This document shows positions 18,634-30,464 of a DNA stretch of 64,000 nucleotides, piece by piece. How positions within the stretch are numbered: the stretch's first letter is position 1; each line of letters begins with the position of its first letter. Both the position numbers and the translations under genes were made by a program. Below the pieces are notes generated by a model. That model saw only the letters and a program-made list of their open reading frames with translations, was not told where the DNA came from and did no database searches. The DNA is from Deltaproteobacteria bacterium (GTDB taxonomy: Bacteria; Myxococcota_A; Polyangia; HGW-17). Where the stretch lies: the NCBI GenBank assembly GCA_016937155.1, contig JAFGWM010000053.1:79495-143494 (forward strand). Reading direction: 5' to 3'.

Positions 18634-19002
18634 TTATTTACTTTTTGTATTTGGCTTTTTTTCATCCGATACCATCTGACAGGTCCCGTTGAAAACCGAA
18701 CCGTCTTCGACTGAAATGCTGCCTGTTTTCAATTCACCGGAAAAATTACAACCGCTAATCATCCGACAAAGACCGGAAATATCTATTTTTCCGTTAAAAC
18801 TGCCCAGAAGATTCAACTCCAGAAGCTTAATTTCTCCATCCACACGTCCCTTTGGACCAATTATCAGCACAGCTTTTGGAGCAACAATTTTTCCTGAAAA
18901 AATACCATCTATACGAACCACACCCTCAAAAGATAGCTCACCTTTCAATGTGGTACCCTCACCGATAAGTGTGGTAACATCAGAATTCTCTTTTTTTTTC
19001 AC
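18634..19002 (-). CDS. Bactofilin
   Basis: 122-aa bactofilin, a bacterial cytoskeletal protein that polymerises without nucleotide into filaments used for cell shape, stalks or chromosome/pilus positioning. The right-handed beta-helix core is plain: TLIGEGTTLKGELSFEGVVR, IDGIFSGKI, VLIIGPKGRVDGEI, NLLGSFNGKI. Short polar N- and C-termini (KKKEN, KKPNTKSK) flank it, as usual. Its ATG overlaps the stop of the upstream GHKL ATPase gene by 4 bases. That operon neighbour suggests its assembly or location may be tied to the ATPase; this is inference. Confidence 0.93.
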   Translation of the reverse strand: MKKKENSDVTTLIGEGTTLKGELSFEGVVRIDGIFSGKIVAPKAVLIIGPKGRVDGEIKLLELNLLGSFNGKIDISGLCRMISGCNFSGELKTGSISVEDGSVFNGTCQMVSDEKKPNTKSK

Positions 19003-19952
19003 TGTTCACTCCCGGAGGAATATTCAAAAAAAGCAATAACTGCCGGAACTCCTATTTCTTTTGTCTGTTTAAGACTGATTATAACTTCAGTAGCGATGTT
19101 TGGCGCAACATTTACTATGTAACTCTGAACTCTTCTGATAGTCAGGTAGATACCAAGGCCAGCGCCAATGGTTTTACGATCAATCTGTTCTTTGGAATAA
19201 AGACATTTTGAAATGTATGCCAGAACAGTTTTTTTATCAAGTGCCCCAAACCGGTCTCTGACAGCCATATATAGACCCTCCTGAGTTTCACTGTACCTCA
19301 GAGATACTGGTTTCGGTGAATCCATATTAACCCTTTTGTGAGGATCAATGTTTCCAAACATCATATTCCCGTCTTCTTCTCTTGGGGCATTGTAAAGGGC
19401 ATTCATTACAAGTTCTTCAGCTGCCTGTACAGCATGTTCACGACGAATTCTTCTCAGTCCCATATCACGGGCGACATCTCTGACTTTATCCAGAACAAGC
19501 TGTCTTCCCTGATAATCCTTAAAACGGAGATAGGATACTTCATCCTTTTCGGACAGATACTTTTCCATTCCAAAAATAGCTCCGGTAAAAAGTACAAGCA
19601 TGAGAGCCCTGAGATTACTCTCCCAGGTAAACTCTCTTCTCAGTATCTGATCAACATCATCAAGTTGCAAAAACTCAACAACAGTTTCCAGAGTAGTTTC
19701 AGAAGGTAAAACGGGAATTAACTTTCTATGAAAAGGTGAAACATCACGGGAAAATTCAAGAGCCATATTCTCTTCACCGGAACCTATTATCAACACACCC
19801 AGTTGATATTTGTCCAACTTATCCAGTCCATCCCATGAAACAGTCTGAACATTTACGCTGGAATTTACAGAGGCAATTATTTCCTCCACATTTCGTACCA
19901 GCGAACTCTCACATCCACTTACAATACAAACTTGAATTTTTGATTTTGCCAT
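18999..19952 (-). CDS. GHKL ATPase with receiver-like N-terminus (anti-sigma-kinase-like)
   Basis: 317-aa cytoplasmic protein. Residues 1-130 look like a receiver-type alpha/beta fold (IQVCIVSGCESSLVRNVEE, YQLGVLIIGSG) lacking a clear acidic pocket. Residues about 165-300 are an RsbW/HATPase_c_2-like ATP-binding domain: EELVMNALYNAP (N box), MAVRDRFGALD (G1 DxxG-like) and IGAGLGIYLTIRRV (G2). No HisKA helix is seen, so it is more likely a switch protein or Ser/Thr kinase of the anti-sigma-factor type than a classic histidine kinase. It lies 15 bases after the lipoprotein gene and overlaps bactofilin by 4 bases. Confidence 0.78.
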   Translation of the reverse strand: MAKSKIQVCIVSGCESSLVRNVEEIIASVNSSVNVQTVSWDGLDKLDKYQLGVLIIGSGEENMALEFSRDVSPFHRKLIPVLPSETTLETVVEFLQLDDVDQILRREFTWESNLRALMLVLFTGAIFGMEKYLSEKDEVSYLRFKDYQGRQLVLDKVRDVARDMGLRRIRREHAVQAAEELVMNALYNAPREEDGNMMFGNIDPHKRVNMDSPKPVSLRYSETQEGLYMAVRDRFGALDKKTVLAYISKCLYSKEQIDRKTIGAGLGIYLTIRRVQSYIVNVAPNIATEVIISLKQTKEIGVPAVIAFFEYSSGSEQ

Positions 19953-19967
19953 ATATTCCTCGAAATT

Positions 19968-20720
19968 TTAGAGGGGGGGCTCTTCTTCATCACGGTTTCC
20001 GGTTTTCACCGCAGGTTTTTTAACTTCCTTAGCAGGCTCAACATTTTTTGATTTACCGCTGTTATTTTTTACCACAACTTCAACTGCAGGTTTTTCAGTC
20101 TTTTTTACTTCAAGCGGTTTTGACCCCGGCATGGGAGTAAACTGTATGTTTGAAAATTTATATACAACAACAGCGCCACCCCTGAGATAACTTACTCTGC
20201 TAATTTTTCTGGAGTCTCTATCGATTTCGTTGACAACATATGTTTTATCTTCACGATTCAGAATATTTTTTTTAAGGGCACCGCTATAATGAACCAGAGA
20301 CTGAATAAGACATGGAAATTTGCCTTCCACTTCCTGAACAATTTTTTCTCTTTTTTTTCTGCGACCAACAATTTTCTTTACTACCACCTTATCAGCATAA
20401 CACTCAATAATTTTATGAATATTATTAGAGTTACCATTGGAATAATATTCCCAGCGTGACTGACCCTTTGAGTATGAATATTTTCCTTCTTCTCTGGCTG
20501 TCACTTTACCACCAGCCATCGCCTCAAGTGAAAAATCGCTTTCAACCTTCATTACTTCATCATAGTAATCAAGAACTTTGGATAATCCTGCCCATTTTCC
20601 TGAAGAATTTCCAGAGCTGTCTTCCAGTTTAGGATTTACGGTTGTAGGTTCTGTATTATCCTTTTTTGTACAAGACGCAGACAAAATAACTGCCAGAAAG
20701 AAAAATACTGCTGTTTTCAT
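19968..20720 (-). CDS. Lipoprotein with basic C-terminal tail, function unknown
   Basis: 250-aa predicted lipoprotein. Signal MKTAVFFFLAVILSASC with lipobox LSASC. The start ATG 20720 follows GGAGG with a 5-base spacer; upstream in-frame ATGs at 20735 and 20822 are not supported by such a site. Mature part: a beta-rich region (EGKYSYSKGQSRWEYYS, KVVVKKIVGRRKK) that could be LolA/LolB-like, then a Lys/Pro/Val-rich tail (KPAVEVVVKNNSGK, EVKKPAVK) likely to be disordered. First gene of an apparent operon with the GHKL ATPase and bactofilin, and preceded by a candidate promoter. Confidence 0.72.
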   Translation of the reverse strand: MKTAVFFFLAVILSASCTKKDNTEPTTVNPKLEDSSGNSSGKWAGLSKVLDYYDEVMKVESDFSLEAMAGGKVTAREEGKYSYSKGQSRWEYYSNGNSNNIHKIIECYADKVVVKKIVGRRKKREKIVQEVEGKFPCLIQSLVHYSGALKKNILNREDKTYVVNEIDRDSRKISRVSYLRGGAVVVYKFSNIQFTPMPGSKPLEVKKTEKPAVEVVVKNNSGKSKNVEPAKEVKKPAVKTGNRDEEEPPL

Positions 20721-21096
20721 GGGAACCTCCGCACGCATAATATCAAAACCACTGCATTTTGCAAATAGTTCAATGGAAAGCTGAATATATTCTTTATTTT
20801 TATTGTAGTATCTACGTAGCAATTTCAGAAAATCTCAAACAGATACTCTAAAATTTATTCCGGAATATAGTGTTGCCACATGCATTCGTACTGATTCTTT
20901 CTTATATCTTTCAAAATACTACCCTGAATATCTTAATTTTTATGGACTGATTCACCTTAAATCGTTCTATCAAAGCATCTGAAATGATTTTTTCTAATAT
21001 TCATTATTGTTTTCAATGTGTTGTATCATTTTTGAACAAAAACTTGCTTTGTAGATCTCTTGATGGCATATTGGCAAACCAGTGAGGAGTTTAATT
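20721..21096. other. Non-coding stretch of 376 bases between divergent genes
   Basis: Holds the candidate promoter at 20737-20764 for the minus-strand operon and, at its right end, GAGGAG as ribosome site for the gene at 21097. The middle is AT-rich with stops in all frames; no tRNA, clear hairpin terminator or riboswitch was seen. Confidence 0.6.
20737..20764 (-). promoter_or_regulatory. Candidate sigma-70-type promoter of the lipoprotein/bactofilin operon
   Basis: On the minus strand TTGCAA (20759-20764) is separated by 16 bases from TATTAT (20737-20742). Transcription would start about 10-15 bases before the ATG at 20720, giving a short leader that still holds GGAGG. Seen by pattern only. 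Confidence 0.4.
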
Positions 21097-21499: not shown

Positions 21500-24400
21500 A
21501 TGGCTTTTAAAGTACTGATAGCAGAGGATGATCGACATACCAGAACCATTCTGGAACATATCTTTACAAAGGATCCTTCATTCAAGGAAATGGATATTGA
21601 ACTTCTTCTTGCAAGCGATGGTGAACAGGCGTTGAGGTATTTTAGAAGTCATGATCCAGATCTTATTATTTCTGATCTGTTAATGCCCAAAGTTGATGGT
21701 TTCGCATTTTGCAGGGCTGTGCGTGAATCTCCAAATGGTAAAGATAAGCCACTGGTTATTACAAGTGCCATATACAAGGAAACAGCATTACTAAACAGAC
21801 TCAGAGAAGAGCTTGGTGTTGTTTTTTTTGCAAAGCCTTTTCAGGTAAGAGAGTTCACCAGTGAGATTCTATCTCTGATCAAGGTAAAACCTGTCATTGA
21901 AAAAAAGACTGACTTTAAAACCAGAATTACCATGAGTGGTCCATTCAAAGGTTCACTTAATAACAAATGCCTCCCTGAACTGCTAATTGATCTTCATGAT
22001 ATTGATGCAACCGGAATATTGATTATTGAGAAAGGACGAATGAAAAAAGAGATTTTTTGTCAATTCGGACGTCCAGTTGGAGCAGAATCAAACATCAGGC
22101 ATGAAACTCTTGGAAATTATCTTGTAACCAAAAAGTTGCTCACCGAAAAACAGCATCAGGATATACTTATCAGGGCAAAGGATAATCGCATATCATTTTT
22201 AAGATCACTGATTGAATCAGAGGCTTTTGATGAAGAGTCCATTTTAAGATATCATTCCAGCCTGGTAAAAGTCAGAATAGTAAATGCATTCAAATGGTCT
22301 GAGGGTGACTACAGTTTTATCCCGGGAGATGATTTTTCAGATAGAATAACCAAATCTCCTGTTGACGTAATTTCTCTGGTTTTTGCAGGAATGAAACGGG
22401 TTTCCGATCTGGATGAAATCGCTGACAGGCTTAAAAGTGATTTACTCTCCACAATCACCATCACTGAAAGAGGAGACAAGCTTAAGGAAGAGTTTGTCAG
22501 AGTTTTTGAAAACACAGTTTTTAATCAGATTACTGGCGGTTCAACAAGCCTTGGAGAACTTTTGGGAACTGGACTTTTGCCCACAGAGGTATATTCCCAT
22601 ATTTGGACCCTTCTGAAAACAGGTATGATTTCTTTAAAGAGGGAGCCTGGACAAATACCATCCAATGTTAAAATTCCAATGGAAGATCCATACGGACTAT
22701 CAAGTCTCAAAAAGGCTGCAGTTAAAAATGATGACCATGAAGAGGAAATATCGATAGTTGTAAATATGCCTGTAAACCCTGATGCCGCGGATGCAGGCCT
22801 TATACTTGACATTCCAATGGAAGTGGAAAACTCACAGACAAGGGATCTCAGGCGGGAAGTCAGGGATTTTTATATTGCAATTCAGGATAAGGATTACTTC
22901 CAGATTCTTGAAACTGAAGAAGATGCCCCCCCTCAGGTTTATACACAAAAATACAATGAACTACTTAAAAAGTTTGATATAAGCAGGTTCTCAGATGTTG
23001 ATCTCGGGGCAGATCATACAAAGCTTGAAGAAATAATAGAGTTTCTAAATGTTGTTCATCAGGCATTAATTGATCCGGTGCGCAAAAAAGCCTATCTTGA
23101 GAAACTTCATTCTGACAGAGAAAACGATGCAGCAATACTTGATGCTGAAGTTCTCGCTAAAAAATCTGAAGAGCTTTTAGGCAGAGGTCAAAATAATGAA
23201 GCCTTAACCCTTATATCAAAAGCTCGAAAAGTAAATCCTGATGTTGGTGATTATCACGCACTTTATGCAAAGGCGCAGTATCTTAATGGTGAACCGGAGG
23301 ATAGCTTCATAAGTGCTCTTGTTCAGGCAATTGATCTTGAACCCGACAGCATACTTGTCAACTCGATTGCTGCTTCAATTTTTGAAGGATTATCCAAAAC
23401 AGATGATGCCGCCATCTATTATGAAAAGGTGCTGGAGATTCAACCTGAAAATGAGAAAGCTTTCAGTGCTCTTGATGCAATTTATACGGAAAAGGGAGCT
23501 TTCCGTGTTCTGGAAAGACTTCACAGACGTCTTATCCACCTTTGTGGATCACGACGGCCTCAGAGGACAATTTTTCTGGCTAAAAATCTCGCCAAACTAT
23601 ATGAAGTAAAACTGAATGATCTTGAAAAAGCTAAAGCTGCCTGGGAAATTGTTCTAAATGCTCTACCACACGATAGAGAAGCAAAAGACGCTGTAAAAAG
23701 GATTCGGACCTCACTTCAAATGGCCAGTGAACCACCTGAGCATCAGTATGAAAACATACTGAGACAACTTGCAACAAATCCTTTTTCCAAGGATCTTCTC
23801 AGAGCAGGATATCAGATTGGAAACAACATCAGCCCTGATTTGACTTTTCTCTTTGCACAGGCACTGATGGCTCTGGATTATGCGGATGATACAGAAAAGG
23901 CGTTTTATAACAGATATAATCCACCGTTTCTCCCCAGAGCATGGAAACAGATTGATGCGGATGTCTGGTCGAATATTACGGATGCTGACGATTTACCGGA
24001 GATAGGCAAGTTGTTTGAAACCATATGTCTCAATGTTCCGGAAGCGATGTTTTTTGAAAAGCATCCCGATTCACACAGACTACTTGAAAAACATGAATAT
24101 TCGCCCGAGATACTCAGGACCATTGAATACGTGTCATATCAACTCAATGTACCTTTTCCGGAGTTATTTACATCATCTGAAATTAATTCAATAGAACCAG
24201 GTACCCATGGTGCTGACATTGTAATTTATATCCCTGAACATTTTCTGAAAAATACTGATACTAAAATGATTGCAGCTCAGATTACACCTTGTCTGGCCTC
24301 GTTCTGGACAGGAAGAGCTCTACCTAGGATAACAAGCGGTAATAAACTACTACTTCTCCTTAAGGCTACTCTGGAATTTCTAGCTCCAAAGGGAATAGTC

Positions 24401-24691
24401 GACTCTGAAATTATCCGTATAACAAAACTGCTCTCCGCAGCTAACTCCGATTTAAAACTTCAACTTGGAGGAATATTTACTGAAATCACAGCAAGCAGGG
24501 GCAACATAAATGTCAGTCAATGGTCCAGAGGTGTATGGCAGAGCGGATTTAATCTTTCACTTCTTTTATCCCATGATCTTAAAACTGTACTTTCCCTGAA
24601 TGAAGAACACAGAGGGAGCATAATTAATTGGTCTGTATCACCATCACATCTTAATGCCAGAAAACTTCTCGGCATCAGCATTGATATATAA
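21500..24691 (+). CDS. Response regulator with receiver, DUF4388, J-like and TPR regions and a novel C-terminal domain
   Basis: 1063-aa cytoplasmic multidomain regulator. Residues 1-125: CheY-like receiver (VLIAEDDRHTR acidic pair, DLIISDLLMPKVDG phospho-Asp, ITSAIY, FAKPFQ). About 150-280: DUF4388/PatA-like region (FKGSLNNKCLPELLIDLHD, GILIIEKGRMKKEIF). About 450-540: a J-domain-like helix set (KDYFQILE ... FDISRF ... LNVVHQALIDPVRKKAYLEK) in which the HPD tripeptide is absent. About 550-740: TPR helices (EELLGRGQNNEALTLISKA). From about 778 to the end: a region shared with the 25768-30393 protein. Start ATG 21500 follows AAGGA. Receiver input with TPR output suggests protein-interaction control, as in myxobacterial motility or polarity regulators; the target is unknown. 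Confidence 0.85.
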   Translation: MAFKVLIAEDDRHTRTILEHIFTKDPSFKEMDIELLLASDGEQALRYFRSHDPDLIISDLLMPKVDGFAFCRAVRESPNGKDKPLVITSAIYKETALLNRLREELGVVFFAKPFQVREFTSEILSLIKVKPVIEKKTDFKTRITMSGPFKGSLNNKCLPELLIDLHDIDATGILIIEKGRMKKEIFCQFGRPVGAESNIRHETLGNYLVTKKLLTEKQHQDILIRAKDNRISFLRSLIESEAFDEESILRYHSSLVKVRIVNAFKWSEGDYSFIPGDDFSDRITKSPVDVISLVFAGMKRVSDLDEIADRLKSDLLSTITITERGDKLKEEFVRVFENTVFNQITGGSTSLGELLGTGLLPTEVYSHIWTLLKTGMISLKREPGQIPSNVKIPMEDPYGLSSLKKAAVKNDDHEEEISIVVNMPVNPDAADAGLILDIPMEVENSQTRDLRREVRDFYIAIQDKDYFQILETEEDAPPQVYTQKYNELLKKFDISRFSDVDLGADHTKLEEIIEFLNVVHQALIDPVRKKAYLEKLHSDRENDAAILDAEVLAKKSEELLGRGQNNEALTLISKARKVNPDVGDYHALYAKAQYLNGEPEDSFISALVQAIDLEPDSILVNSIAASIFEGLSKTDDAAIYYEKVLEIQPENEKAFSALDAIYTEKGAFRVLERLHRRLIHLCGSRRPQRTIFLAKNLAKLYEVKLNDLEKAKAAWEIVLNALPHDREAKDAVKRIRTSLQMASEPPEHQYENILRQLATNPFSKDLLRAGYQIGNNISPDLTFLFAQALMALDYADDTEKAFYNRYNPPFLPRAWKQIDADVWSNITDADDLPEIGKLFETICLNVPEAMFFEKHPDSHRLLEKHEYSPEILRTIEYVSYQLNVPFPELFTSSEINSIEPGTHGADIVIYIPEHFLKNTDTKMIAAQITPCLASFWTGRALPRITSGNKLLLLLKATLEFLAPKGIVDSEIIRITKLLSAANSDLKLQLGGIFTEITASRGNINVSQWSRGVWQSGFNLSLLLSHDLKTVLSLNEEHRGSIINWSVSPSHLNARKLLGISIDI

Positions 24692-24710
24692 ACCTGATTG
24701 ATTAACAAAA

Positions 24711-25316
24711 TTACAAAAAGGGATTGTTGATTTTTTCTTCGCCAATCAAAGTTGGCTCTCCATGTCCACTCAGAACCGTAGTGTATGGTGGTAGCGTAAA
24801 CAGTTTATGCTTAATGCTGTTTTCAAGTGATTTCCAGTTTCCCCCCCATAGATCAGTCCTGCCAACACCCTGATTAAAAAGAGTGTCTCCCGAAAAAACA
24901 ATATTTAATGATTTAACATAAAGACTTACACTCCCCGGACTGTGTCCAGGAGTATGAATAACCTGGAAAACATTAAATATCATATCTTTGTCGTAAAATT
25001 CAACATCCGGAATACCAAAAAAAGGCAATCCAAAAGCTGCAGATTGCTTGTCACATGACCTGTACATTTTTTCATCTTCGGGATGCAGATAGAACTTGGT
25101 TTCCGGAAAATAATTGGCTATTTCCATGGCGCCAAGAACATGATCAACATGGCCATGTGTGAAAAGTACACCTGCTATATTTTTTCCGGATTCTTTTAAA
25201 AACTTTTTCATTTCCTGAGGAGTTCCGGAAGGATCAATTATATAGGATACATCACCATCGCTGAGTTCATACATATTGGTAGCAATAGGACCAAGAACTT
25301 TTATTTTTACTTCCAT
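24711..25316 (-). CDS. Metallo-beta-lactamase-fold hydrolase (glyoxalase II-like, YcbL type)
   Basis: 201-aa MBL hydrolase. Metal ligands: THGHVDHVLG (HxHxDH), HTPGHSPGS, FSGDTLFNQGVGRTDLWGG (bridging Asp) and C-terminal LSGHGEPT. The short length and GRTD ... GHGEPT features fit the YcbL/glyoxalase II-like group that hydrolyses S-lactoylglutathione or related thioesters; the exact substrate is not shown. ATG 25316 is preferred over 25343 because GGAGG lies 9 bases upstream. It overlaps the zinc-ribbon gene by 10 bases, so the two are probably translated together. It converges on the response-regulator gene. Confidence 0.87.
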   Translation of the reverse strand: MEVKIKVLGPIATNMYELSDGDVSYIIDPSGTPQEMKKFLKESGKNIAGVLFTHGHVDHVLGAMEIANYFPETKFYLHPEDEKMYRSCDKQSAAFGLPFFGIPDVEFYDKDMIFNVFQVIHTPGHSPGSVSLYVKSLNIVFSGDTLFNQGVGRTDLWGGNWKSLENSIKHKLFTLPPYTTVLSGHGEPTLIGEEKINNPFL

Positions 25317-25750
25317 GTAAGAGAACCTCCACACTGTGGGCATTTTGATTCAGTATTTTCCACAAGAGACTGACAATAAGGACACTGGAGTTTTACAATT
25401 TCCTTAACAATTATTTTTTCAACCAATTGCTGTTTAGAGTTATTCTCAGGTGTCTTCCATGATTGTTGAATTATGGAAAGTAATGATGAGATAGTTTCCT
25501 TTTGATTTTTCCTGTTGCATTTTACACGAACATCACAACCGGAACCTTCAGTTGCGTCAAAATCCAGTGTAATTTTCAGACTTCCAATTCCAAAGAAAAA
25601 ATCAAAAAAACCACCCTTTTCTATTCTTACAACATACTCAACCTTGTCAGCTTCCTCAATGTGATACCCCTCTTTCCTCACAATTTTCAAAAACTCATCA
25701 AAGGCATACTCAACGCTGCAGTTCATTTTCAGTGTGTAAGACTCAGACAC
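25307..25750 (-). CDS. Protein with C-terminal zinc ribbon, function unknown
   Basis: 147-aa protein. Residues 1-95 form an alpha/beta domain not recognised (MNCSVEYAFDEFLKIV, GSLKITLDFDATEG). The last 30 residues are a zinc ribbon, CPYCQSLVE ... KCPQCGGSLTWK (two CxxC pairs). No signal or membrane segment. It follows the giant TPR gene by 17 bases and overlaps the MBL gene, so the three form a minus-strand operon. Confidence 0.7.
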   Translation of the reverse strand: MSESYTLKMNCSVEYAFDEFLKIVRKEGYHIEEADKVEYVVRIEKGGFFDFFFGIGSLKITLDFDATEGSGCDVRVKCNRKNQKETISSLLSIIQQSWKTPENNSKQQLVEKIIVKEIVKLQCPYCQSLVENTESKCPQCGGSLTWK

Positions 25751-25767
25751 GCTGATTATTTCCTAAC

Positions 25768-28700
25768 TTATTTAATGGCCAGACCAATTGCTTTTCTTAG
25801 CTCATAATATTCAGGACTGAGAACAAACTTAAGAATTTCAGAAACTCTGTCTCTTGATTTAATTCCAGTGATATTATCCTGTTCATCCAGAGTCATTGCA
25901 ACAGTGTGTTTCAGTTCCCCCGTAATCAGAGTTGCCGCTCTTAGCGATGTTCTGGCGTTGGCATTGATCCATCTGGCAACACTGTTGTCAATATCCCTGG
26001 TACTGAATTTTTCAATAAAGGGTTTTGTACTTTCCAGAGTAGCTGCAGGAACTGCATTCCTGAGGTGTTCCATTATCTTTTGGACCTCAGATTTTCTATC
26101 ATCAGGGAGGGAAGGTATTTTCCCTGGAACAGTGAGTTCAAGAACTGCATATAAACTGTTGAATAGACTTGTAGGTGTAGCTGCTGCTCTTCTATAGAAC
26201 CTTTCAGGTCTCAGATAAGCAAGTTCCCGAGCAAAATAGTATGCACTCTGCATCTGATCCATTTTCTGGAAAGCCTTTACATCAACCTTCCATGATGGCA
26301 AAAGAGCATTATCCTCTCTGGTGTTGGCAAGTTGAACCCTGAGTGGCAATCCTTCAGATTCAAAAAGCTCAGGTCTCACCTTTATAAGAAGTGTTTTACT
26401 GACGTACTCATATGCTCTTACCCAGTCTCGTTTATCCTTGTCAATATCAACCCTGTTTTTACGGTTAAATCCCCAAACACTGTGTGGCTTTGCCTCATAA
26501 AGAGCCATGAAATATCCCAATGCCCTGAAAATCATATTCAGATCATTGTCCTCTCCATCACTGCTCAGTAAAAGCCACTCATCATCATTGAGAATGGAGG
26601 TAGCCTTTGCCAGACCCTTTCCGGCATATTTGTCATAGAAGAGTTTTTCCTTGTCGCTGGCCTGATTATACATTGCCAGTACACCGCATAGATTCCAGGT
26701 CAGATCCTTGTCTTGTTTTGCGATGGATATATCGAAGAGCTTCCTTATAAGATCAATATTCTGAGGTTCCTCAGAGAGTACCTTCATATAAGCACTCTGG
26801 GCTTTATCAAGATGCTGAGGTCCAGCCTGAATATATAAATCCGCCAATCTCAAATGCTTTTCAGTGTCACCTGAAAGATTAGCAGCTGCTTCAAATGCTG
26901 CAAGAGCAGTATCCATATCCCCCATCTGCTCCATGTATACTTCACCGAGTGTTTCCCATATATTGACATCCTTTTGCAGTGCACTGTTCCTTTTCATCTG
27001 TTTTCTAATGGACCTGACCAAAGAATGCCAGTCTTCGCGCTTCTTATGTATCTGAATTATTCTTTCAAATACCTCTTCATTTTCGGAATCCTGTTCCAGA
27101 CAGACTTCGAATTGTTCGAGAGCACCATTTTCATCACCCATTTCCTCTGCATAAATAAGAGCAGCACTGTAGTGATATTTAGATCTGAGAAGTCCCGGTT
27201 CTTCAAGATCAGCAAGTTTTAAAACTGTAGAAACAACTTTATCCCACCTTTCGGTCAGGTGATATAAATCAAGAGCATCATTCAATACACCTCTGTCCCC
27301 TGGTTTAAGTGAAATTGCTTCTTCCTGCAGCTCAATCGCACTGTCCGGATCCTTAGCCGTGTCAATATAAAAACGAATCAACTCGCTGATCAACTCAAGT
27401 TTTTTGTCCAGATCCTCTTCTTTTTCAATTCTGCCAAGCTTAATTTTTGCTACCTTCTCATAATCCTGACTATCTGTTCTTAGTCGGACTACAGCTTCAG
27501 CAGCATCATTACAACCCGGATGGAATTCCAGAGCCTTGTCATAGAAACTTACTGCTTTAACAGTATCACCTTTAATTTCCTTTATTTTACCTAACTTGGT
27601 GTAAATTTCAGCTACCTGAATACTGGAAAGATTATCCCTGTGAGCAACTAAAAGGGCCTGATAGAGAGAAAGAGCTCCATCCCATTCTTCTCTGCGATCC
27701 CTTAATTCAGCCAGTTCCAGAAGAACATCAAGACTTGTGGGTTCCAGCTCTCTGGCTTTTTCAAGATAACTTGCAGCCTTTTCAATATCACCGGCACTTA
27801 ATGCAACTTTTCCAGCCTTGAGGAACATCTCTACTTTATCATGTTTTGGCATATCACCTATTTCAGTGACTATCACGTGAAGAAGCGGAGCAGCTTTCTC
27901 CCAGTCACTGATGTTGTAGTAATGCTCTGCAAGTATTCTTGTTGCTTTATCATGACCGGGAATCAATTCAATAAGTTTTTCATATAAAACAACGGCTTTT
28001 GTTAAATCTTCAAGTTTGTCACTGTAGATACTGGCCGCCTTGAACACCAAAGCGCTTTTCTCTTTTTCATTTGCATTTGTATCAAGCGCTTTCTCCAGAT
28101 AGTTCACACTTCTTGTCCATTGCCCCATCTCATAATAGGTATCGCCTAAAATTTCTAATATTTCAGAATCATTACTTAATGCAGCATTCGCCTTCTGAAG
28201 ATAGTCTTCAGCCTTTTCAAGTTCTCCAAGATTAAAAAGACATTTACCGGCATCCTTCAGATAGATCGCTCTCTCCTCACCGTCGGTGTCCTCGCTAAGT
28301 TTCTCAAGGTATTCAAGGGCAGAGGAATAATCATCATTTTTCATGTAAGCAGATCCCAGAAGTTTCCAGGTGTCAGCACTATTCCCCTTCAATTCCTGAC
28401 TTTCTTCCAATACACTGACAGCGCCATCAATATCTTTCATTTTATTAAGTAGAGTTTTACCCAGTTTACGAAGGATTTTTGATTTAGGGATATTATCGTG
28501 CAGAACCTCTGAATGCTTTCTCAGTGTTGCACAGAGTTCTTCATACTGTTCTTCAGATTCATAGATATCCTCAAGCTGTGAATAAATATCCTCTTCTTCA
28601 GGCCTTAACAGAATCACCCTTTCATAATTTTCTGCTGCATTTGATCTCATTGTGGGGTTCAGCAGATATTCAGCAGCCATTCTCTTGTAAAGATTGACCT

Positions 28701-30393
28701 TTTCCTCCACATCATCAGTTTTTTCAGCAATCATTGAGGCCATTTTCATGTAACCCCTCATCCTGCCGCTGCCCTCGTAAAGATCCTTTAGGAGTCGCAT
28801 CATCTCAAGATCAGTTGTCATTACTTCCAGCAGGTGTTCAAGAATGTCTATCGCTCTGCTGTGATCATCAAGTTCTTTTGCATACAGAAAACCAAGTTCT
28901 CTTCTGGCCATTCTGGCTTCTTCAGCACTTTCCACACTCTCGATTTTCCTGTTCAGCAATGATGCAAGCTGTTCGAATAGTTCGTGTTTTCTGTAAATAA
29001 CCTCAAGGGCGAGGATTGACTCCATATCATCAGGTACAAGCGAAAACACTTCCTCATAGGTTGCTGCCGCTAAAAAATTATCTTTTAGTCTGTCGTTTTG
29101 AATCCTTGCAATTTCTCTCAGGTAGAAAGCTTTTTCATGACTGTCATCAGAAATATTGATTCGTTTTTTTAATGTTTTTATCAGCGTTTCCCAGTCTTCA
29201 TTCTTCTTCTGTATTCCCGCAAGTTCATCGAGAACTTCTCCGTTTTTTGGATCAACACTGTGAGCCCGTTCAAAAAGTTCCACTGCTCTCCTCGGATTAC
29301 CCAGTCTTTCATTACAGGCTTTTCCAGCTTCCAGATACAGTCTTGCAGCAACCTCTGAACTTCTCACATCCGGGATCATCATGACAAGTTCATCAACATA
29401 CAGATCCCAGTGATTTCCAGTTATTGCAAGCCTCTTGAGATCAGCTAGGAGTGAATCATCTTCAGGCTTTAACTCGAAAATAACTTTAATTGCCAGAAGA
29501 GCCTCTTCTGTGTTATCCAGTTCAATTTCCTGTATCTGAGCAACCTCTTTTATAAGCTGGGTTCCTTCCTCATCAGTTTCAAACATACCGGCATTGAACC
29601 TGCATATCAGTACATCAGCCAGTTTGCCGTGATCTCTGTTTGCCCTTGCTTCCTTCTCTATCCTTTTCACATTTGCAACAGCATCTTCATCATCCGGATT
29701 CTCTTCAAGATAAAGTTCCCACCCTTCAATATCATCCTTGTCTTCCGGCTTTTCAGTTGGCCCCTCATTCTCTTCTTCAGCGCACTCAACTGCAGCTGTA
29801 CTTTCAACGGATTTTTCAGCCAGCTTTTTCTCAAGATCAGCAACTTTTTTTTCGTATTCTTTACTGATTTGAGATTTTACTTTCTTCTCAATCTCTGCCG
29901 TATCGATTTTTTCATCAACTCCTGATTTTAGTTCTTCCAACTCCTTAGTAAGCTTCTTAATCTCCAGATTCGCCTTCTCAAGCTCTTCATCGGACTGCGT
30001 ATTAGAATTACCCGCATTGTTTTCGAGATCTTCTATCTGCTTTTTCAGATTTCTGATTTCCTCACCGGCTTTTTCTTCATTCTCTTTCCTGAGCTTCTTT
30101 TTCAACTTTTTCATCATGTCTTCAGGCAGCTCAGTATCAAGAATTTCTCTGGTTTCCTTAAGACTTTTCTGAAGAGCCTTAATTTCTTTATCTTTTTCTT
30201 CCAGAGCAGAAGATATCTCAGTATCCTCCTTCTCTGAATCTGATGAATCCAGATACTCAGCTATCTCTGAAATAGCATCAATAACATCTTCGAGATGTTT
30301 CCCGTCTTCTTCGCCTTCAATTTCTATTTCAGCAATAAATTCAAGATGATTATTCAACAACTCTACATACTTTTTTAAATTTTCTCGGGACAT
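25768..30393 (-). CDS. Giant TPR protein with N-terminal coiled coil
   Basis: 1541-aa cytoplasmic scaffold. Start ATG 30393 has GGAGG with a 7-base spacer; the frame is open to 30447 without such a site. Residues about 45-220 are highly charged coiled coil (KEIKALQKSLKETREIL, KKLRKENEEKAGEEIRNLKK). About 225-1225 is a run of TPR-type helix pairs (ALEYLEKLSEDTDGEERAIY, AVVLYEKLIELIPGHDKATR, and AEDYLQKANAALS, for example), more than twenty by eye. About 1225-1541 is the region shared with the response-regulator protein at 21500-24691. No catalytic motif. Length and repeats suggest an assembly platform for a cell-polarity, motility or secretion complex. Promoter candidate at 30436-30464. Confidence 0.85.
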   Translation of the reverse strand: MSRENLKKYVELLNNHLEFIAEIEIEGEEDGKHLEDVIDAISEIAEYLDSSDSEKEDTEISSALEEKDKEIKALQKSLKETREILDTELPEDMMKKLKKKLRKENEEKAGEEIRNLKKQIEDLENNAGNSNTQSDEELEKANLEIKKLTKELEELKSGVDEKIDTAEIEKKVKSQISKEYEKKVADLEKKLAEKSVESTAAVECAEEENEGPTEKPEDKDDIEGWELYLEENPDDEDAVANVKRIEKEARANRDHGKLADVLICRFNAGMFETDEEGTQLIKEVAQIQEIELDNTEEALLAIKVIFELKPEDDSLLADLKRLAITGNHWDLYVDELVMMIPDVRSSEVAARLYLEAGKACNERLGNPRRAVELFERAHSVDPKNGEVLDELAGIQKKNEDWETLIKTLKKRINISDDSHEKAFYLREIARIQNDRLKDNFLAAATYEEVFSLVPDDMESILALEVIYRKHELFEQLASLLNRKIESVESAEEARMARRELGFLYAKELDDHSRAIDILEHLLEVMTTDLEMMRLLKDLYEGSGRMRGYMKMASMIAEKTDDVEEKVNLYKRMAAEYLLNPTMRSNAAENYERVILLRPEEEDIYSQLEDIYESEEQYEELCATLRKHSEVLHDNIPKSKILRKLGKTLLNKMKDIDGAVSVLEESQELKGNSADTWKLLGSAYMKNDDYSSALEYLEKLSEDTDGEERAIYLKDAGKCLFNLGELEKAEDYLQKANAALSNDSEILEILGDTYYEMGQWTRSVNYLEKALDTNANEKEKSALVFKAASIYSDKLEDLTKAVVLYEKLIELIPGHDKATRILAEHYYNISDWEKAAPLLHVIVTEIGDMPKHDKVEMFLKAGKVALSAGDIEKAASYLEKARELEPTSLDVLLELAELRDRREEWDGALSLYQALLVAHRDNLSSIQVAEIYTKLGKIKEIKGDTVKAVSFYDKALEFHPGCNDAAEAVVRLRTDSQDYEKVAKIKLGRIEKEEDLDKKLELISELIRFYIDTAKDPDSAIELQEEAISLKPGDRGVLNDALDLYHLTERWDKVVSTVLKLADLEEPGLLRSKYHYSAALIYAEEMGDENGALEQFEVCLEQDSENEEVFERIIQIHKKREDWHSLVRSIRKQMKRNSALQKDVNIWETLGEVYMEQMGDMDTALAAFEAAANLSGDTEKHLRLADLYIQAGPQHLDKAQSAYMKVLSEEPQNIDLIRKLFDISIAKQDKDLTWNLCGVLAMYNQASDKEKLFYDKYAGKGLAKATSILNDDEWLLLSSDGEDNDLNMIFRALGYFMALYEAKPHSVWGFNRKNRVDIDKDKRDWVRAYEYVSKTLLIKVRPELFESEGLPLRVQLANTREDNALLPSWKVDVKAFQKMDQMQSAYYFARELAYLRPERFYRRAAATPTSLFNSLYAVLELTVPGKIPSLPDDRKSEVQKIMEHLRNAVPAATLESTKPFIEKFSTRDIDNSVARWINANARTSLRAATLITGELKHTVAMTLDEQDNITGIKSRDRVSEILKFVLSPEYYELRKAIGLAIK

Positions 30394-30435
30394 TAAGATA
30401 CCTCCGGATTCGAGATCTGCTTTGATAAACCCATG

Positions 30436-30464
30436 TTTATAAAACAAATGGACATCCCTTGCAA
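30436..30464 (-). promoter_or_regulatory. Candidate sigma-70-type promoter of the giant TPR gene
   Basis: Minus strand: TTGCAA (30459-30464), 17-base spacer, TATAAA (30436-30441). Transcription would start about 35 bases before ATG 30393, leaving room for the GGAGG ribosome site. Good spacing and near-consensus -10. Confidence 0.5.

Follow-up and report, generated by a model that had tools for sequence, protein, structure and literature searches.

The DNA analyzed here (the window) is a stretch of 64,000 nucleotides of contig JAFGWM010000053.1 (assembly GCA_016937155.1) from a Deltaproteobacteria bacterium (GTDB lineage Myxococcota_A; Polyangia; HGW-17). Two large, convergently arranged genes in the window encode tetratricopeptide repeat (TPR) proteins, termed protein A and protein B below, which share a C-terminal domain of about 300 residues. 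The identity and the possible role of this domain, probably a relative of the M48 metallopeptidases that has lost its catalytic site, are the main subject of this study. The two proteins and their parts are as follows.

21500..24691, plus strand: protein A, an open reading frame (ORF) of 1063 amino acids (aa) with a receiver, DUF4388, a degenerate J-like region, TPR and a putative pseudo-M48 domain
21512..21865, plus strand: receiver domain of A (residues 5-122; PF00072, E 1.5e-14, above the cut-off)
21947..22405, plus strand: DUF4388 of A (residues 150-302; PF14332, E 9.8e-10)
22892..23107, plus strand: J-like region of A without HPD (residues about 465-536; deduced from relatives)
23834..24688, plus strand: putative A-type pseudo-M48 domain (residues 779-1063; from comparisons of sequences, profiles and AlphaFold models)
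within 24278-24307, plus strand: place of the former HExxH in A (QITPCLASFW; from the alignment)
within 24512-24550, plus strand: place of the former ExxAD in A (from the alignment)
25768..30393, minus strand: protein B, 1541 aa from an ATG, with a charged N-terminal part, a long TPR array and a putative pseudo-M48 domain
25771..26709, minus strand: putative B-type pseudo-M48 domain (residues 1247-1559 when counted from the TTG of the 1559-aa frame; from comparisons of sequences, profiles and AlphaFold models)
26235-26203, minus strand: place of the former HExxH in B, inside FARELAYLRPE (from the alignment)
25980-25936, minus strand: place of the former ExxAD in B (from the alignment)

An earlier note on the window, made by reading the sequence, had assigned a receiver and DUF4388 to A, and coiled coil and many TPRs to B. 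The Pfam matches to PF00072 and PF14332 in A and to TPR families along the array of B bear these assignments out, and the charged N-terminal part of B is probably a coiled coil as judged by eye. The receiver of A contains the Asp motif ISDLLMP, at residue 57, and the Lys motif FAKPF, both read from the sequence. With a receiver and a phosphoacceptor Asp, A can be classed from its sequence as a putative response regulator, the phosphorylation itself being a prediction. The TPR matches of A itself fell below the Pfam cut-offs, and each of the five A relatives L097, L101, L103, L105 and L109 had at least one TPR family above the cut-off. Among the same five A-type relatives, all validly scanned, PF00226 (DnaJ) scored above the cut-off in L105 alone and below it in L097, L101, L103 and L109, and this family was not among the Pfam matches listed for A. 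The HPD motif is absent from the J-like region of A, which therefore does not qualify as a J-domain cochaperone. The region (window 22892-23107) appears as a second worn-down module inside A. For B, the frame from the first TTG spans 25768-30447 on the minus strand (1559 aa), and the ATG at 30393 is likely the start because it matches an MSRE start in the relative L096 of the same genus. No clear membrane helix was found in A or B, the highest mean hydrophobicity over 19 residues being 1.27 and 1.11, respectively.

The C-terminal domains of A and B were found to be homologous to each other. The earlier note had lined up the ends of the two neighbouring TPR proteins by eye, and BLASTP, a shuffle test and a profile-profile comparison all agree with that observation. 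When the C-terminal parts alone were compared, BLASTP aligned A and B with an E value of 2e-8 and an identity of 22% over 348 columns, and the local alignment scored 96, whereas 1000 shuffles averaged 33.6 and never exceeded 60. The profile of 28 B/giant-type rows matched that of 16 A-type rows with an E value of 1.2e-45 over 287 columns. Iterated profile searches seeded by either domain over the first 64 loci, with 1,193 ORFs, recovered the identical 68 ORFs, a set that includes the same gene from two loci in some cases plus a few fragments. In the whole-protein BLASTP, the TPR parts of A and B aligned as well, separately from the C-terminal module. Plain TPR can be ruled out as the cause of the likeness between the two domains, since no Pfam family matched either domain in isolation and the profile-profile comparison supports their homology; the repeats precede the domain in the sequence. 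Isolated domains of two out of six relatives gave weak Pfam matches to unrelated families below the cut-offs, and all NCBIfam matches listed (for A, the best 25 of 80) lay outside the domain. We found no published description of the domain among the best 20 or fewer papers listed by each literature search, in a library with few subscription papers. The legend of a figure in PMC12288465 mentions a published AlphaFold model of the gliding complex including GltI, a giant TPR protein considered below, and thus the fold of the domain may have been seen there.

The family alignment displays the block PELYL ... PSxVVGxxLLxG ... EKELAFxxARxLTxxRPE and, further along the domain, W-x-x-AV[DE]xTxxRAGLLLCxDL. 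Together they resemble the core of an M48 peptidase in which HExxH and ExxAD have eroded, and this likeness was tested in four ways. M48 peptidases were taken from the genomes of the relatives and aligned (three M48 alignments). In hhalign, the B/giant-type profile (28 rows) matched the alignment of 10 ELxADR-type M48 peptidases with a score of 80 and an E value of 8.5e-11, and the A-type profile (16 rows) matched the same alignment with a score of 49. The six scores from the two family profiles and the three M48 alignments ranged from 49 to 80, against maxima of 27.6 in the 60 column shuffles done for each and 14.7 with reversed alignments. The profile alignment sets AR-x-L-T on HE-x-G-H and AVD-x-T-x-x-R on AEL-x-A-D-R. 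We also ran plain hmmsearch with a profile free of any M48 sequence over 5,139 ORFs, which include M48 loci by design. The next matches listed after the family members were ORFs of M48 loci, 22 of them at E <= 1e-4 (best 1e-10; four being second copies of the same place), and these matches fell in two separate blocks, one around HExxH and one around ExxADR, in the same order. Across 20 genomes, the Pfam model of M48 weakly matched one family member (G009:C121), with 18 bits and an E value of 0.0036 (cut-off 20.3), and PF01435 gave no match on any of the eight isolated domains scanned. A sequence search of PDB with profile A1 returned a single match at chance level, an oxidoreductase with an E value of 1.2. 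Altogether, the sequence comparisons indicate homology of the domain to the M48 superfamily at the profile level, with a relationship to the M48 peptidases carrying the ELxADRxxLL motif. The likeness to M48 (PF01435; BepA, HtpX and Ste24p/ZMPSTE24) lies in the two motif blocks in order and in the best structural neighbours described below. The earlier note had left the domain unrecognized; it has indeed no name, and its identity now points to a catalytically dead M48-type zincin. The module sits after the TPR, whereas BepA has its TPR C-terminal to the peptidase.

To survey the catalytic residues, we searched all 227 loci with the family profile at E <= 1e-15 and aligned the distinct domains of more than 230 residues, 113 in number. 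None of them retains any of the H, E and H residues at the columns aligned with HExxH, the motif that M48 peptidases have. The position of the first His is occupied by A (54), G (42), T (11), S (3) and three others, that of the catalytic Glu by R (60), K (30) and 23 others, none of which is E, and that of the second His by T (54), A (27), S (17) and 15 others, none of which is H. The replacements thus sum to A/G in 96, R/K in 90 and T/A/S in 98 of the 113 domains. The third zinc ligand, the Glu of ExxAD, is kept in part, with D in 49, E in 35 and other residues in 29 of the 113; the position holds W in A and alanine in B. HExxH was not found anywhere in A or B. Outside the ligands, the Arg and the Pro of the RP motif are kept in 91 and 79 of the 113 copies, respectively, and the Arg of the ADR block in 105. 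In A and its near relatives, the usual replacements are gone as well (TPCLASFW), and W and N stand in place of the Arg residues of the RP motif and the ADR block, respectively. By its motif, the module is not an active M48 peptidase, as HExxH has been lost in every aligned copy. That most copies conserve the replacements suggests a retained function and not decay.

The AlphaFold models of the isolated domains had a mean predicted local distance difference test (pLDDT) value of 93.5 and a predicted template modelling (pTM) score of 0.90 for B, and 85.1 and 0.83 for A. Foldseek ranked a putative lipoprotein (E 0.37) first, BepA (0.59) second and Ste24p (0.98) fifth. Among the best 50 rows of VIA-align for the B model, 26 had at least 98 aligned residues, and 24 of these were metallopeptidase chains with Z scores of 4.0-7.7, a few of them named presumptively from their titles. 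The other two long rows were the N-terminal domain of anthrax lethal factor, which we take to be a non-catalytic zincin-like copy. The closest neighbours of the B model were Ste24p (Z 7.7, root-mean-square deviation (rmsd) 8.0, 184 residues), BlaR1 (Z 7.5, rmsd 4.6, 153 residues), BepA (Z 7.5, rmsd 4.8, 164 residues), jannalysin (Z 6.9, rmsd 3.2, 101 residues) and ZMPSTE24 (Z 6.9, rmsd 7.3, 183 residues), followed by M1 aminopeptidases and others. Most of the remaining rows covered only the first 46-48 residues, resembling TPR or 14-3-3 helices. For the A model, the best 12 rows (Z 3.5-5.6) comprised 11 metallopeptidases and one N-terminal domain of anthrax lethal factor, with BepA (Z 5.6), 3c37 (5.5), Ste24p (5.4) and BlaR1 (5.4) at the top. 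The models are thus consistent with a zincin fold for both domains, at Z scores below 8 and Foldseek E values above 0.001. The structures agree with the assignment to M48; Z scores below 8 being insufficient alone, the sequence evidence carries it.

Searches of genomes of the Myxococcota revealed that the module is widespread and tied to TPR proteins in this phylum. The B domain found a match at E <= 1 in all of the 39 genomes examined (the own genome and 38 relatives), the weakest of the best E values being 1.3e-4, and the A domain found one in 34 of the 39, some of these matches not being A-type proteins. In a wider sample of the phylum, 92 of 188 genomes possessed the module at E <= 1e-8, including the own genome and 39 genomes of the same class; the 20 genomes listed of the 96 with no match all lie outside the class. 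The numbers of copies per genome are lower bounds because at most 12 candidates were scored in many genomes of this sample. The own genome has at least six copies, namely those in A, B, a giant protein of 3504 aa, proteins of 531 and 370 aa and a frame of 2696 aa. The 370-aa protein (L004:1054-2166, G000:C76) combines an N-terminal hydrophobic stretch, seen by eye, with a very divergent putative pseudo-M48 domain, and as it gave no Pfam match it has no recognizable TPR. TPR families matched eight of the nine full-length members validly scanned, with A and L003 matched weakly and L004 not at all. In the 111 ORFs with a visible stop, the protein always ends within 18 residues past the domain, and within 10 residues in 110 of them. 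All of the 41 loci of the named scan are records of metagenome-assembled genomes titled Myxococcales, Myxococcota, Kofleriaceae, Deltaproteobacteria or Proteobacteria; by taxonomy 37 titles belong to Myxococcota and four to Pseudomonadota, the latter presumably being old labels. One scan of viral contigs with the domain of B found no relative and thus gave no support to a viral spread of the module. Two family members (G022:C78:136484-137431 and G030:C432:5831-6778), from two genomes of a single genus, contain one in-frame TAG each.

In a domain tree of 63 rows, built by a quick method and with 11 rows in no group, the 18 A-type rows formed one clade across several families of the class, with a support of 97 in the Shimodaira-Hasegawa-like approximate likelihood ratio test (SH-aLRT), and the nine B-type rows formed another within the order (SH-aLRT 99). 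The A-type label derives from the search with A, and the architectures of only some of these proteins were scanned. The giant proteins grouped together (SH-aLRT 90) with the short L003 nested inside; the placement of the long branches L004, L100, L043, L052 and L003 is unsure. As the A-type and B-type domains belong to separate clades, those of A and B are old paralogues, and the tree rules out a recent local duplication of the module between the two genes.

The giant proteins ending in the domain recall GltI/AgmK (MXAN_4863, 4132 aa), the giant protein with TPRs in the gliding machine of Myxococcus, for which PMC3169522 gives the gene order of M. xanthus as gltD (1191 aa), gltE (471 aa), gltF, gltG (640 aa, FHA and TonB), gltH and gltI (4132 aa). 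We chose five genomes with 1 to 5 contigs, three from other classes (G144, G044 and G110) and two from the own class (G202 and G134), in which the giants ending in the domain measure 4218, 4156, 4023, 3372 and 3790 aa, respectively. Upstream of the giant on the same strand, G144 and G044 encode an FHA protein (745 and 720 aa), which in G144 bears a TonB_C match below the threshold, a TPR protein (543 and 506 aa) and a second TPR protein (1208 and 1170 aa), all lengths being measured from stop to stop. Genes matching gltD, gltE and gltG were found in the published order on the strand of the giant in all five genomes. The identity to the G144 proteins was 54-71% (main pieces) in G044 and G110 and only 22-51% in G202 and G134. 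Given the published order of gltD, gltE and gltG and the comparable length, the five giants appear to be GltI/AgmK, an assignment by position and length. In contrast to the GltI/AgmK proteins of about 4100 aa in a glt cluster, B has 1541 aa and other neighbours, and does not belong to them. The own genome yielded 17 gltG-like matches (best E 1.2e-38), none of which lies on contig C30 of the 3504-aa giant. This giant (G000:C30, L099:432-13569) is followed by two genes resembling, by eye, subunits of lysine 5,6-aminomutase.

Taken as a whole, we propose, with a probability of about 0.62, that the domain is a dead M48-type zincin fixed at the C-terminus of Myxococcota TPR scaffolds and likely serving as a non-catalytic docking module. 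The TPR array would hold partner proteins, and the dead peptidase at its end would retain the groove that binds peptides, which would dock a partner without cleaving it and so anchor the scaffold. Phosphorylation of the receiver would switch this platform in A, and B would be a constitutive scaffold. TAF2 is a pseudo-metallopeptidase used as a binding or scaffold module, and the domain resembles it in combining the fold of a peptidase and the loss of the catalytic residues with a non-enzymatic setting. The same features characterize the pseudo-metallopeptidases of the M14 and ADAM types, described as binding or scaffold modules in PMC11266112. These types are not M48, and the term M48 is absent from the main text of that review.

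Several points weigh against this proposal. The docking function, which we regard as likely, rests on analogy with other pseudo-peptidases, as described in PMC11266112. No M48 match of the family reached the Pfam cut-off of PF01435, Foldseek against PDB gave no match at E <= 0.001, all Z scores of both models are below 8, a range in which unrelated matches occur, and the rows of the A model below Z 3.5 mix with unrelated chains. Gathering the domains at E <= 1e-15 excludes true M48 enzymes by construction, and thus a live intermediate would have gone uncounted; one of 88 domains in an earlier count (L052) has a chance HExxH elsewhere in its sequence. With the usual replacements lost in A and its near relatives, the two proteins may differ in how they use the groove. 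We also tabulated a supposed salt bridge in place of the zinc, between R/K at the former Glu and an acid at the third-ligand position, and found it unconvincing: both residues are present in 71, one in 32 and neither in 10 of the 113 domains, whose rows are related.

The strongest rival holds that the domain only closes the TPR solenoid, as a structural cap or as a piece for dimerisation, and that its former groove binds nothing. We regard such a pure cap as rather unlikely. It would suit both the placement of the domain at the very end of all 111 closed ORFs and the high AlphaFold confidence at the last residues of B. However, the conservation of the replaced motif (R/K 90, R 91 and P 79 of 113) seems to go beyond the need of a generic cap, although a cap could likewise demand it. 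We give a slim chance to the idea that the dead relative regulates live M48 peptidases of the same cell through competition for substrate or pairing. PF01435 genes occur in 18 of 20 genomes, and 30 of the 39 genomes match one ELxADR-type enzyme at E <= 0.001; nevertheless, nine of the 39 have no such match whereas all 39 match the dead module, some of the 30 are other M48 types, and the single PF01435 match of the own genome is Ste24-like by eye. No neighbourhood shared by the dead module and M48 genes came to notice, none having been sought. That the domain is still active, as a peptidase or hydrolase relying on a new set of catalytic residues, is extremely unlikely. Conserved polar residues such as the Arg of the RP motif (91/113) and that of the ADR block (105/113) could be cited for it, but not one residue of HExxH survives in any of the 113 copies and A and its near relatives have neither Arg.

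The earlier note had read the convergent arrangement as one local signalling or scaffold system, of which A and B would be the two large parts, joined by the module and by the two small genes between them.

24711..25343, minus strand: gene of the metallo-beta-lactamase (MBL) fold (PF00753, E 1.9e-27), downstream of B and the zinc-ribbon gene
25307..25750, minus strand: gene of a small zinc-ribbon-like protein with C-terminal CxxC/CxxC, overlapping the MBL gene

The matches of the latter product to zinc-ribbon families were below the cut-offs, and its cysteines were read from the sequence. The order A, MBL, zinc ribbon and B on one contig was found in the own genome and in G002 only, with the contig ends of G003 compatible and G001 undecided. 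On the other hand, in G004 and G006 the sequence following A contains no MBL match over at least 2.9 kb, and A and B lie inside separate contigs in G008 and G010. As A and B belong to separate clades, the module has at least six copies in the genome and the two genes are neighbours in few relatives, the notion of a local two-part system is weak, and we consider it improbable; a conserved A-B gene pair was likewise rejected, being too rarely kept among the relatives. What is conserved locally is the unit of B, zinc ribbon and MBL: the zinc-ribbon and MBL genes lie behind B in all six genomes of the family in which the stretch is visible (own, G001, G002, G003, G006 and G007). No zinc-ribbon match was found in the examined stretches of G008 and G010, and one MBL match (L106) lies apart. 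The A homologue of G002 (L098:5310-8573) carries a single in-frame stop that divides it into two frames, of 676 and 411 aa, reflecting either a broken gene or an assembly error. Ahead of A (window 18634-20822) are a small bactofilin-like gene, an overlapping ATPase-like gene of 317 aa and a lipoprotein-like gene, all named by eye, and matches to the three occur in the same order before A in G002. An Rfam scan of the window gave no match.

The domain has no entry in the copies of Pfam and NCBIfam used, yet many Myxococcota genomes contain several copies of it, and the giant protein in the best-studied of the bacterial gliding machines appears to end with it. Its reading as a dead peptidase offers an experimental handle, namely a fragment of about 300 residues with a mapped former active site and clear mutants. 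As a bolder extension, possible though doubtful in our view, the widespread dead-M48 family might act as the C-terminal reader of Myxococcota TPR scaffolds. Its former active site would accept the ends or strands of peptides, and giants such as GltI/AgmK and phosphorylation-gated scaffolds such as A would thereby be plugged into machines of the gliding type and into other assemblies of the envelope or of signalling. The reading as a dead peptidase would in any case give M48 a non-catalytic branch and might reveal the role of the C-terminal end of GltI/AgmK.

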